Below are positions 567 through 33,149 of a stretch of 64,000 nucleotides of DNA, piece after piece. A model generated the notes under the pieces. The model made no database searches. It worked only from the letters and a program-made list of their open reading frames with translations, and was not told where the DNA came from. The translations under genes and the position numbers were made by a program. Positions within the stretch are counted from its first letter, which is position 1. Every line of letters starts with the position of its first letter. The stretch comes from Sphingobacteriales bacterium (GTDB lineage Bacteria > Bacteroidota > Bacteroidia > Chitinophagales > CAIOSU01): assembly GCA_027486795.1 (NCBI GenBank), contig JAIXOI010000053.1, forward strand, positions 1 through 64,000, in the 5' to 3' direction.

Positions 567-598
567 CTTGCACATCTGCTTTTTTATTCGTACATTTG
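567..598 (+). promoter_or_regulatory. Promoter of the retron-like cassette
   Basis: A perfect Bacteroidota -7 box TACATTTG lies at 591-598, with CTTG at 567-570 as the -33 element and a 20-bp spacer. Transcription should start near 602-606. That puts about 275 nt of leader ahead of the first ORF at 881 and places the whole structured RNA (632-836) inside the transcript. Confidence 0.6.
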
Positions 599-631
599 TA
601 CCAGTTCTTTGATAGTTGTTTGTTATACCTT

Positions 632-836
632 AATTGGTTTTTCAGGGCAGAATAGGCGTTCTAGCAACGTAACGGCGAAAGCCGTAAACACACCCATAAA
701 GTCTCCTAGACACCATGCGTTAGTTTTATCTAAACATGCTTAGGACTTTAAAATCATGATTCTTGAATCATTATAATTGGAGCTGGTGTTTTGTTGAGTG
801 GTTAAATGCATCCCGTAAATTACTGAAAAACCGATT
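632..836 (+). ncRNA. Structured leader RNA with retron msr/msd-like layout
   Basis: Bases 632-645 (AATTGGTTTTTCAG) pair with 823-836 (CTGAAAAACCGATT) over 14 positions with one G-U wobble, closing a 205-nt domain as a1/a2 stems do in retron RNAs. Inside, in order: a hairpin at 656-670 (GCGTT, loop CTAGC, AACGT); a GNRA hairpin at 672-685 (ACGGC-GAAA-GCCGT); a long interrupted hairpin at 698-749, with AAAGTC-CTA pairing to TAGGACTTT, then CATG/CATG and TTAG/CTAA around loop TTTTAT; and a 6-bp hairpin at 756-771. Two short hairpins followed by one long one match the msr-then-msd order of known retrons. No canonical AGC branch site follows a1 directly; AGGGC is there instead. The RNA lies upstream of the small ORF, XRE gene and reverse transcriptase, as expected for a retron. 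The structure was found by eye and not folded computationally. Confidence 0.6.
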
Positions 837-880
837 TAGGCCGTTGGAGCTGCCGGTATAAAATAAACTGGTTTTTCTAC

Positions 881-1114
881 ATGAACAAAAACAAACAACA
901 GCTTGATGACTTGCTAGGCAAGTTACAGGCATTATTAAAGACGCGGGATGCGCTCCCAGAGGAAGTAGTAATCTTTCTTGAGGAATGTCAATTAACATTG
1001 ATTGAACTTAAAAAGGATGAGGAGCCAAACAAAGTGACAAACCTATTGTACAAATGGGGGCCATCACTTGTAAGGTTGATGATTTATTTACTTAGTGAGG
1101 ATACACCAAGCTAA
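881..1114 (+). CDS. 77-aa unknown protein, first gene of the retron-like cassette
   Basis: I do not recognise a family. The protein starts MNKNKQQLDDLLGKLQALLK, looks almost entirely helical, and carries an acidic and basic middle (LIELKKDEEP) and a hydrophobic C-terminal segment (SLVRLMIYLLSE). ATG 881 lies 44 nt after the closing stem of the leader RNA. A GGTTTTTC segment at 870-877, just before the start, can pair with 825-832, so translation may respond to leader folding. It is followed by the XRE gene after 48 nt and then by the reverse transcriptase, all on one strand, so it is probably part of one operon. In retrons the extra protein is usually the effector. This ORF and the XRE protein are the two candidates; that role is inference. 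Confidence 0.6.
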   Translation: MNKNKQQLDDLLGKLQALLKTRDALPEEVVIFLEECQLTLIELKKDEEPNKVTNLLYKWGPSLVRLMIYLLSEDTPS

Positions 1115-1162: not shown

Positions 1163-1450
1163 ATGGATTTAGGAAATGCTATAGTAAAATTAAGAAAGCA
1201 AAAGGGTTTGCGTCAAAACGAACTTGCAAGGCTTAGCAATGTATCACAGACATATCTTTCTCAAGTTGAAAACAACCAGAAAGATGTCACTCTTAAAACG
1301 CTTAATCGAATTAGTGAAGCCATGGATATACCAACACCAATTTTGGTCTTTTATTCGCTTGAGGCTGAAGATTTAAGTGAAGCAAAAAGAGAGTCCTATA
1401 AATTAGTTGAGCCAATTATAAGTGCAATGATTGAACAACTTGTTAGATAG
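1163..1450 (+). CDS. XRE-family helix-turn-helix protein
   Basis: A 95-aa DNA-binding protein of the Cro/C1 (XRE) type. The domain spans about residues 3-58, with the helix-turn-helix around QNELARLSNVSQTYLSQVEN (18-37). After it comes a 35-residue helical tail (EDLSEAKRESYKLVEPIISA) that may dimerise or contact a partner. ATG 1163 is preferred. An in-frame TTG at 1154 would add only three residues. The gene ends 5 nt before the reverse transcriptase start, so the two are almost certainly co-transcribed. Likely roles are autorepression of the cassette or, as for the helix-turn-helix partners of some retrons, participation in the effector complex. The second role is inferred from context. Confidence 0.85.
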   Translation: MDLGNAIVKLRKQKGLRQNELARLSNVSQTYLSQVENNQKDVTLKTLNRISEAMDIPTPILVFYSLEAEDLSEAKRESYKLVEPIISAMIEQLVR

Positions 1451-1455
1451 AATCT

Positions 1456-2490
1456 ATGGTCATTCAATCCTTAAACCACTTGTCTGGAATCACAAAAATT
1501 CCCAAAGACAATATTAAGGAGATTAAGAATAATCTAGACAAGTTTTACGATTTCTTCTATAAAGACAAAATTGACTACGTCACAGGAGCCAAGGTTTTAG
1601 AAAAGGGGGAAATAAAAAAGCGTCCCATTCATCCTTCAAAAGGAACCTTAAAGTTGCTTCAACAAAGGCTCTCTAAATTTCTAGAATTAAACCATAATGT
1701 ATCTAATTCAGCACATGGTGGTGTAAAAGGTCGTAGTTGCATTTCATTTATTCTACCTCATTCAGGAAATAGTCATTTTTTTTGTACTGACTTGGAGAAG
1801 TTTTTCCCAACTGTAACTATCAATCATGTAAAAGACACGTTTTTAAGATTGGGCTATAGTCGTCGTATGGCATCAGATTTAGCTAAACTAACTACCTATT
1901 CCTGTCCTGTAAAAGGCCTTTCTGATGGTATTGTTATACCCCAAGGCAGCCCAACGTCAACAATTATTACCAATCTAGTTTTTTATGATATTGATTTAAA
2001 AATTGAGGCACATTGCAAAGAACATAATGTTAGATATACAAGGTACGTAGATGATCTCATGTTCTCAGCAAAGTTTGAGTTTACTGCAGACTTTATAAAT
2101 CCATTAGTTGGTATTATCACCACGAGTGGATTTAGAATTAGCAAAAAGAAAACCAATTCACGTATCGGGGTTGTGGAAGCTGTAGGCATTTGCCTTACGC
2201 CCAAAGGTTTAAAACTAACCAGAAAACAGAAGGAGAAAATCAAGTTTCTACAGGATCATCCCGAAGACAAACGAAGTAAAAACTTAAAATTTCTTGAAGA
2301 AGATTATCTAAATCTTATTAAAAAATCTTACACGGCATATATCAAAACGCTTAATAGCCCTATGTTATCTGATGATGATTCCTTGGGAAAACTCAAGGAT
2401 ACAGTCCATTTTCCTAAAAAATTGGCAAAAGCCAATAAGATCTTAAATGAAGTTGGTCTACCAAAGGCTAAAATCAAAAAAGGAGCTTAG
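1456..2490 (+). CDS. Retron-like reverse transcriptase
   Basis: A 344-aa RNA-directed DNA polymerase without extra domains. Visible motifs: RT1 RPIHPSKGTLKLLQQRL (56-72); RT2 HGGVKGRS (87-94); RT3 TDLEKFFP with catalytic D112; RT4 IPQGSPTS (161-168); RT5 YVDD (197-200) with D199/D200; RT6 GFRISKKKTN; and a thumb-like basic C-terminus. The length and the KGRS-to-D spacing fit retron enzymes. The retron hallmarks are degenerate. Where NAxxH is expected there is FILPH (98-102), keeping only the histidine, and where VTG is expected there is AVG (242-244). There is no group II intron maturase or HNH domain. The gene follows a structured RNA and an XRE gene. The codons look more A/T-rich than in flanking genes, which suggests horizontal acquisition. 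It probably makes cDNA from the 632-836 RNA (inference). Confidence 0.9.
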   Translation: MVIQSLNHLSGITKIPKDNIKEIKNNLDKFYDFFYKDKIDYVTGAKVLEKGEIKKRPIHPSKGTLKLLQQRLSKFLELNHNVSNSAHGGVKGRSCISFILPHSGNSHFFCTDLEKFFPTVTINHVKDTFLRLGYSRRMASDLAKLTTYSCPVKGLSDGIVIPQGSPTSTIITNLVFYDIDLKIEAHCKEHNVRYTRYVDDLMFSAKFEFTADFINPLVGIITTSGFRISKKKTNSRIGVVEAVGICLTPKGLKLTRKQKEKIKFLQDHPEDKRSKNLKFLEEDYLNLIKKSYTAYIKTLNSPMLSDDDSLGKLKDTVHFPKKLAKANKILNEVGLPKAKIKKGA

Positions 2491-2596
2491 GTCCTTGTCC
2501 TATCCGTTGTATCAAAGCTTTCCAAATCTTTCAGAAACTTCTGCCCTTCTGCTTGCTATTCCCTAACTTCACAACTCACCATCGCCAATACCACAA

Positions 2597-3520
2597 GTGA
2601 GCAAAACTATAGCCTTAGTACTTACCAGTGGCAGCGCCCGTGGCATGGCGCATATTGGGGCTATTGAGGAGCTGGAGGCCCGCGGATACCAAATAAAAGT
2701 GGTATCGGGTTCATCTATGGGCGCCGTGGTTGGCGGCCTGTATGCAGCTGGCAAATTGGATATGTACCGCGATTGGGTCATTTCGCTCAGCCGAATGGAT
2801 GTATTCAATCTGTTCGATTTTGCTTTTAGCTCATCGGGGCTATTAAAGGGCGAGCGGGTGTTTGAAGAAATGGCCCGCCTGCTGGGTGATGCCCAAATTG
2901 AAGACTTGCCCATACCCTACACGGCGGTGGTAACCGATATATTGGCCAAAAAAGAAGTGTGGATGCAGCAGGGCAGCCTATTCAAGGCCATTCGTGCCTC
3001 GGTGGCGGTGCCCACTATTGTTACCCCCGTATATACCGATACACAAATACTGGTTGATGGTGGCGTGCTGAACCCTATGCCCATTGAGCCGGTGCTGGGC
3101 CACCAGTACGACTTGCTGATAGTTGTAAATACCAACGCCGAAATACCTTACCATAAGCACTACCTGCCTACCAAGCAAGAGGTGCAAGATGCCGAAGTGT
3201 ACCAAGGCCGGTTGGCACAGTTCCGCAAAAAGTGGTCGAAGTACCTAACCACCAATAGCACCGCAAGCCCAGAACAAATACAGAAAATTGAGAAGCTAGG
3301 ATACATGAGCCTGCTAAACAAAGCGGTAGACTTAATGGAAAACCGCATTATAGAACTCAGCCTTGAAAAACACCAGCCCGATATAGTGGTAAACGTAAGC
3401 CGAGAGGTGTGCAGCATGTTCGAGTTTCACAAAGCCAAAGAAGTTATTGAGGCCGGCCGCATAGCCACAAGAGAAACTTTGGATAACTTTGAAGCGGAAT
3501 TAAGGAAACAGGAGTTGTAG
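2597..3520 (+). CDS. Patatin-like phospholipase (RssA/NTE type)
   Basis: A 307-aa patatin-family serine hydrolase that would release fatty acids from phospholipids or lysophospholipids. It has an N-terminal glycine-rich oxyanion loop (TSGSARGMAHIGA, 10-22), the nucleophile elbow GSSMG with Ser40, and the DGG motif with Asp154, together forming the Ser-Asp dyad. It lacks a signal peptide, so it is probably cytoplasmic or peripheral. The C-terminal third is helical and charged. The start is GTG 2597, with no better ATG upstream of the conserved beta strand. A weak -7 box TAACTTCA at 2564-2571 could serve it. The fold assignment is firm; the substrate is unknown. Confidence 0.9.
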   Translation: MSKTIALVLTSGSARGMAHIGAIEELEARGYQIKVVSGSSMGAVVGGLYAAGKLDMYRDWVISLSRMDVFNLFDFAFSSSGLLKGERVFEEMARLLGDAQIEDLPIPYTAVVTDILAKKEVWMQQGSLFKAIRASVAVPTIVTPVYTDTQILVDGGVLNPMPIEPVLGHQYDLLIVVNTNAEIPYHKHYLPTKQEVQDAEVYQGRLAQFRKKWSKYLTTNSTASPEQIQKIEKLGYMSLLNKAVDLMENRIIELSLEKHQPDIVVNVSREVCSMFEFHKAKEVIEAGRIATRETLDNFEAELRKQEL

Positions 3521-3615
3521 TAGTAACTTACTCTCCTCTTTGCCCAACTTTGACCTAGCTAAGGAGAGGGTGCAGGAGGTAATACGCATTTTCGGCTCCC
3601 AACAAAACATCCGAC

Positions 3616-32502: not shown

Positions 32503-33149
32503 TAGGCCGATTTAATCAATACACTTTCCAGTATGCGGGCAGCACCGTCTATTTTATCCAAGGTGTTTTCCATTGCCGATAGTACCTCTTTGTTTTTCAC
32601 CAAGTTCACCCCGTTGGTTTCTTCCCTAAAAAGCACCCGAACGGCAGAACTGTATACCTCATCTGATTGGCGCTCAAGCTTGGCAATTGCGTTTCGCGAT
32701 TTTAGTATTTTTTTGGGGTGTTTGGCACCATTCATTTCCACCAACATTTTTTGCAGCTCGTCGGCGCTTTCTTTGATTAGTGTTCCCAATTTGCGCACCT
32801 CTGGACTTATATGCTGTACATCATATACTTCAATGCGTTTGGCACTGCGAGTAATAAAGTGCATAATGCGGTTAAGCGAATTGATAAGCGCATATACATC
32901 TTCCCTATCAAACGGAGTTATGAAGGAGTTGTGCAACAAGCTAAGAAGTGTTTCGGTCATTTGGTCGACCTTGGCTTCCTGTTTAACCAGTTCTTTGATT
33001 AGCAAATTTCGGGCATCTAGGTCGCTAGTGTTCAAAACATCTTCCAATGTTTTGGCACCTAAAACCAGTTGTTGACCATTTTGCTCAAAAAGGGGGAAAA
33101 ATTTCCGGTCCTTGGGAGTCAGAAACTGAAAAAAACCATTAAGGTCCAT
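32502..33149 (-). CDS. DUF47 (PhoU-like) regulator of the phosphate transporter
   Basis: 215 aa from ATG 33149 (MDLNGFFQFLTPKDRKFFPL), where the family's conserved N-terminus begins. A frame to 33233 adds unconserved residues. It is an all-helical PhoU-like protein with the VDQMTETLLSLLHNSFITPF and DREDVYALINSLNRIM helices typical of DUF47. It is believed to gate or regulate PiT transport and sits directly upstream in the same operon. Confidence 0.88.
   Translation of the reverse strand: MDLNGFFQFLTPKDRKFFPLFEQNGQQLVLGAKTLEDVLNTSDLDARNLLIKELVKQEAKVDQMTETLLSLLHNSFITPFDREDVYALINSLNRIMHFITRSAKRIEVYDVQHISPEVRKLGTLIKESADELQKMLVEMNGAKHPKKILKSRNAIAKLERQSDEVYSSAVRVLFREETNGVNLVKNKEVLSAMENTLDKIDGAARILESVLIKSA

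Follow-up and report, generated by a model that had tools for sequence, protein, structure and literature searches.

A probable type VI retron in a Bacteroidota genome and the paired elements of its leader RNA

Retron Ec86 (Eco1), a described system to which the present locus can be compared, carries different effector genes and is without a small protein (SP) or helix-turn-helix (HTH) gene of the kind presented here. Type VI retrons are the closer counterpart; the class reportedly goes back to the classification of Mestre et al. in 2020. In the literature searched, which did not take in Mestre 2020 and Khan 2024, we found neither an account of how type VI retrons work nor a description of further RNA signals shared by their leaders. 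The window analysed here is a stretch of 64,000 nucleotides from a Sphingobacteriales bacterium (contig JAIXOI010000053.1, positions 1 to 64,000). Positions 591-2490 of this window very probably constitute a type VI retron in the genome of a Bacteroidota bacterium, in the order boxA-like element, ncRNA (a1-msr-msd-a2), SP, XRE-type HTH and reverse transcriptase (RT).

Gene content and proposed working of the operon

A sequence-only reading of this DNA had described the region as a structured leader ahead of an RT operon. In agreement with this, the three downstream genes match SP_VI, HTH_VI and RT_VI (Table 1): the top PADLOC match of each protein is its own type VI retron family, the genes stand in type VI order and all three reading frames are intact. 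The match of SP is weak; SP_VI is, however, matched by 48 of the 51 aligned SP proteins. The predicted structure of SP comprises three helices (pLDDT 74), for which a comparison with the PDB returned no fold match. The RT_VI match is the best among all retron RT models of PADLOC, and a profile built from the RT alignment matches the Ec86 RT at 1.1e-46. When the RT model (mean pLDDT 85) was compared with the PDB, ranks 1-18 were all retron RTs, and type VI was named in the title of none of the top structural matches. Together with a leader plan that recurs in about 70 operons, the type VI genes and the RT fold support the earlier suggestion that the leader is a retron RNA. Against this assignment stand two altered RT motifs, the weak SP match (1.7e-4), the failure of a model of the relatives' 3′ block to find the leader, and a promoter in which the operator palindrome is not obvious.

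Table 1. Features of the operon and its leader (positions in the window)
Feature	Position	Strand	Details
Promoter -7 element, Bacteroidota type (presumed)	591..598	+	TACATTTG; position fits TANNTTTG-like boxes of relatives' promoters
boxA-like element	604..612	+	GTTCTTTGA, transcript start
a1, 5′ strand of long stem	632..645	+	AATTGGTTTTTCAG; 3 further pairs from 628-630
Candidate priming G	643-645	+	CAG at 3′ end of a1
msr hairpin 1	647..665	+	predicted fold; same position in relatives
msr hairpin 2, GAAA loop	672..685	+	predicted fold; same position in relatives
msd (template region)	690..822	+	between msr hairpins and a2; boundaries inferred, internal fold uncertain
Repeat X′, copy 1	777..785	+	TTGGAGCTG; inside msd
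a2, 3′ strand of long stem	823..836	+	CTGAAAAACCGATT; 3 further pairs at 838-840
Repeat X′, copy 2	844..852	+	TTGGAGCTG; between a2 and SP start
a1′, second possible a2 partner	868..877	+	GGTTTTTC (870-877) pairs with GAAAAACC (825-832); adjoins SP start
SP_VI, small helical protein, proposed effector	881..1114	+	77 aa; PADLOC SP_VI 1.7e-4 (weak)
HTH_VI, XRE/Cro-type DNA-binding protein	1163..1450	+	95 aa; PADLOC HTH_VI 1.2e-25; Pfam HTH_3 1.8e-14
RT_VI, retron reverse transcriptase	1456..2490	+	344 aa; YVDD intact; PADLOC RT_VI 1.1e-48
RT gene 3′ tail	2312..2490	+	homologous to small partner gene of DUF6934

Whole-genome searches provided about 75 operons with SP, HTH and RT. A scan of genome contigs with single proteins produced no relative, and searches of viral contigs, plasmids and phages returned distant RTs only. 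The window gave no match in an Rfam scan. A DNA match of the leader in another genome (G018, locus L052) turned out to be an unrelated stretch and was discarded. In one locus from Neomarinimicrobiota (L164:2174-3337), the HTH frame continues into the RT region to encode 388 aa, an apparent HTH-RT fusion.

We propose that a single promoter gives rise to one transcript consisting of the boxA-like element, the ncRNA (a1, two short msr hairpins, msd and a2), SP, HTH and RT. In this transcript a1 pairs with a2, and the RT would bind the msr. By analogy with other retrons, the RT may use a guanosine close to the end of a1 to prime the cDNA and copy the msd adjacent to a2, and the RT-RNA-DNA complex would then restrain the effector until phage infection disturbs the complex. 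SP is the most likely choice of effector because the HTH protein looks like a promoter regulator and is unseen in some operons that keep an SP-like gene. The HTH protein probably represses the promoter, and the boxA-like element, as in rRNA operons, probably allows RNA polymerase to continue across the leader, which is structured and untranslated. Type VI retron systems are probably used against phages.

The long stem and the hairpins of the leader

The leader of the window has the same element order as other type VI leaders. Its outermost RNA structure is a pairing between a1 and a2 that had been recognized before as complementarity over 14 bases with one G-U. We confirmed these 14 bp and found that CCT (628-630) and AGG (838-840) add 3 bp to the stem beyond one mismatch. 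An inverted repeat of 14 + 3 bp lies within the range of about 8-30 nt used as a criterion for repeats flanking msr-msd in retrons. Among 1,000 dinucleotide shuffles of positions 600-880, none contained an equal stem with ends at least 100 nt apart (longest 13), and a stem this long was present in 1 of 227 tiles of the window, namely the tile holding a1:a2. As far as the stem is concerned, its length upholds the initial impression that the arrangement is unlikely to occur by chance. Total fold energy, which had been suggested as a check, is weak evidence in this respect: positions 620-850 yielded a z-score of −1.45, with 17 of 200 shuffles folding as well, and positions 605-900 a z-score of −3.15 (0 of 200).

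Compensatory changes in related genomes had also been named as a check, and pairing of a1 with a2 is indeed kept by such changes across about 70 homologous operons; the refuting condition set at the time, loss of the pairings without compensation, was thus not borne out. In 48 diverse type VI leaders, the duplex of a1 with its own a2 had a mean energy of −16.7 kcal/mol as compared to −9.4 kcal/mol with the a2 of other loci. This specificity was not reached in any of 20,000 permutations (z −17.6) and was retained inside two sequence classes (z −13.8 and −5.3). In 38 leaders for which flanking sequence served to anchor a1 and a2, 83% of the positions were paired versus 64% expected, the largest value in 5,000 permutations being 72%, and nearly every helix position displayed several pair types with both sides changed. 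The duplex of the window itself (−22.7 kcal/mol) beats all 94 between-locus pairs and is among the strongest of all leaders compared. These co-pairing statistics were calculated with our own scripts on mutually related loci, and within-class permutations and controls served to limit the effect of kinship. The long stem is a genuine structure. Neither RNAalifold nor a covariance model built on the relatives' 3′ block was informative, which we attribute to loss of the helix register in a plain alignment; the covariance model, which is essentially a sequence model, did not find the leader of the window.

Two short tandem msr hairpins are located 3′ of a1 in most relatives examined. In the window, the GNRA hairpin previously assigned to 672-685 was recovered as a 5-bp hairpin with a GAAA loop. 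A hairpin at 656-670 is possible, but the predicted one spans 647-665 and occupies the place of msr hairpin 1 in the relatives. The long hairpin proposed at 698-749 can fold but is absent from the minimum-energy structure and is unsupported. Of the suggested msr-then-msd order, the two tandem msr hairpins recur, and only the inner msd hairpin is unsupported. The msd fold is ambiguous in the window, and the msd varies among relatives. The 3′ end of a1 reads CAG followed by GG, which is near but not identical to the CAGA/CAGC variants (PMC6868368); a retron is expected to have its priming guanosine at the inner end of a1, within AGC or a variant of it.

Further leader signals and alternative readings

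The stretch at 591-598 we take to be a -7 element of the Bacteroidota type, judging by the consensus, and presumably it functions as such. Just 3′ of the -7 element, GTTCTTTGA or a close variant was found in 70 of 71 type VI leaders. The same word precedes the 16S rRNA gene in this genome (G000, locus L194; about 105 nt upstream) and in three relatives. In loci with other RTs a boxA-like word is rare (11 of 80 within 900 nt upstream), and several of these 11 loci have a type-VI-like RT together with a small protein and a leader of similar kind, with no HTH seen. Throughout the genomes of relatives, TTTG plus the boxA word was not enriched over the reversed pattern, so it is the constant position of the word in type VI and 16S leaders that supports the boxA assignment. 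The window contains GTTCTTTGA once more, at position 32990, in antisense orientation inside a gene; this copy is probably due to chance. In rRNA operons boxA acts in antitermination (PMC4807359), and by analogy the element at the head of the retron transcript is probably an antitermination signal.

Seven type-VI-like operons (L022, L027, L167, L170, L179, L094 and L102), several of them from gut Bacteroidota, combine a boxA-like start with a small, often basic protein and an RT. No HTH was seen in them, and the paired repeat described below is kept in several. They possibly constitute an HTH-less subtype.

Two further elements of the leader, the paired repeat X′ and the second a2 partner a1′, vary in a locus-specific manner. 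The X′ word usually measures 8-12 nt, and its two copies agree within a locus and differ between loci. They change together with a z-score of −15.5 over 48 loci (−12.1 and −4.5 within classes). In relatives, copy 1 forms the 3′ arm of a covarying hairpin (z −7.7), which is not recognisable in the window. Pairing of a2 with the a1′ of its own locus reached a z-score of −7.9 over 48 loci with controls near 0, and the window ranked at 0.02. Within class I, the z-score was −5.3 in loci with a short spacer between a2 and SP as opposed to −1.0 in long-spacer loci; the spacer of the window is short.

A tentative extension of the retron explanation, which adds to rather than replaces it, is that the leader also acts as a two-state switch. 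The a2 strand would pair with a1 in the retron state and otherwise with a1′, immediately 5′ of the SP start codon, the X′ copies would compete likewise, and translation of SP would be set by whether the retron RNA is folded and bound. The locus specificity of a2:a1′, most evident in short-spacer class I loci, and the concerted change of the X′ copies are consistent with such a switch. However, a2:a1′ pairing is absent from long-spacer class I loci, and the predicted openness of the SP start barely differs on average between the two states (0.46 versus 0.41 unpaired). Moreover, a1:a2 is by a clear margin the more stable pairing in the window as in most loci, and given these energies we regard the switch as hypothetical. 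More speculative still is a general model that views type VI leaders as RNAs with two states, driven by an antitermination signal of the rRNA type. Here, a1:a2 would compete with a2:a1′ at the SP start, cDNA of X′ copy 1 could pair with copy 2 in the mRNA, and reverse transcription, or its disturbance by a phage, would directly set synthesis of the small effector.

The RT of the window contains FILPH in place of NAxxH (region X) and AVG in place of [V/I]TG (region Y). Of 16 validated retron RTs, 14 have NAxxH and 14 have VTG (PMC6868368). These motifs are thus typical but not obligatory, and we do not take their alteration to rule out retron membership. From about residue 286 onwards, the RT is homologous to a free-standing protein of ~50 aa, the gene of which is located directly 3′ of a DUF6934 gene in L055, L056 and L057. 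The congener G004 (L055) matches the operon flanks at 302-417 and 2518-3522 with 79-81% identity, and there the matching flanks enclose DUF6934, the small gene and one further gene. Thus, the retron sits in the slot of the DUF6934 module, and the RT frame runs into the small gene of this module. The two altered motifs, the tail derived from a neighbouring gene and the fact that a close relative of the leader was not found would fit a decayed or repurposed retron with an RT that no longer makes msDNA. Given that YVDD and all three reading frames are preserved and that the a1:a2 duplex ranks with the strongest found in any leader, we consider such decay unlikely.

DUF6934 (PF22028) and the small gene, which codes for an uncharacterised protein, were located in Bacteroidota genomes at L055:2391-2995, L056:1796-2410 and L057:2528-3193, and look like a conserved two-gene module. 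On the minus strand of the window, positions 300-460 contain a short, apparently truncated open frame that aligns with the L055 sequence upstream of DUF6934; the left edge of the inserted retron may lie here.

An alternative in which the X′ copies and the inverted repeat of a2 and a1′ serve the HTH protein as DNA operators, and not as RNA signals, is also improbable. The HTH protein belongs to the XRE-type regulators, and short repeats close to a start codon are a typical form of operator. Yet the repeat pair is retained in several related operons that showed no HTH gene (read by eye), and the repeat word varies between loci, whereas the HTH proteins are well conserved. Furthermore, the promoters of relatives possess a separate operator-like palindrome. 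This imperfect palindrome of the type TATTAACTGTCAGTAATA is positioned between the -33 and -7 regions (for instance in L028, L116, L124 and L150) and is likely the HTH operator in many type VI promoters; in the promoter of the window it was not obvious. A fortuitous fold of an ordinary 5′ UTR as the source of the leader structure would agree with the unremarkable fold energy of 620-850, but is contradicted by the length of the stem in the shuffles and tiles and already by covariation in the relatives, and can practically be dismissed.

Comparison with known systems

For the retron explanation we prefer, comparison of the leaders provides a covariation-supported RNA architecture for type VI retrons. 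It also yields three signals that can be tested, namely the boxA-like element at the head of the leader, the X′ repeat pair and, where the effector gene starts, a second partner of a2. A functional boxA-like element would tie expression of the retron to the antitermination machinery of the ribosome genes. A functional switch would explain how synthesis of the effector is coupled to retron assembly.

The boxA-like element is the same word as in the 16S leader of this genome. In contrast to the boxA of rRNA leaders, it heads a retron transcript, and binding of NusB/S10 is putative here. With Ec86 the operon shares the RT fold (PDB ranks 1-2) and the a1/msr/msd/a2 plan (PMC6868368). With type VI retrons it has in common the gene set and order ncRNA-SP-HTH-RT, and its leader follows the plan of a1, msr hairpins, msd and a2 of the relatives found. 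It differs from them in a leader that is missed by the model of the relatives' 3′ block and in an RT that shows only 27-36% identity to the other type VI RTs in the comparison and has two altered motifs and an extra C-terminal tail.
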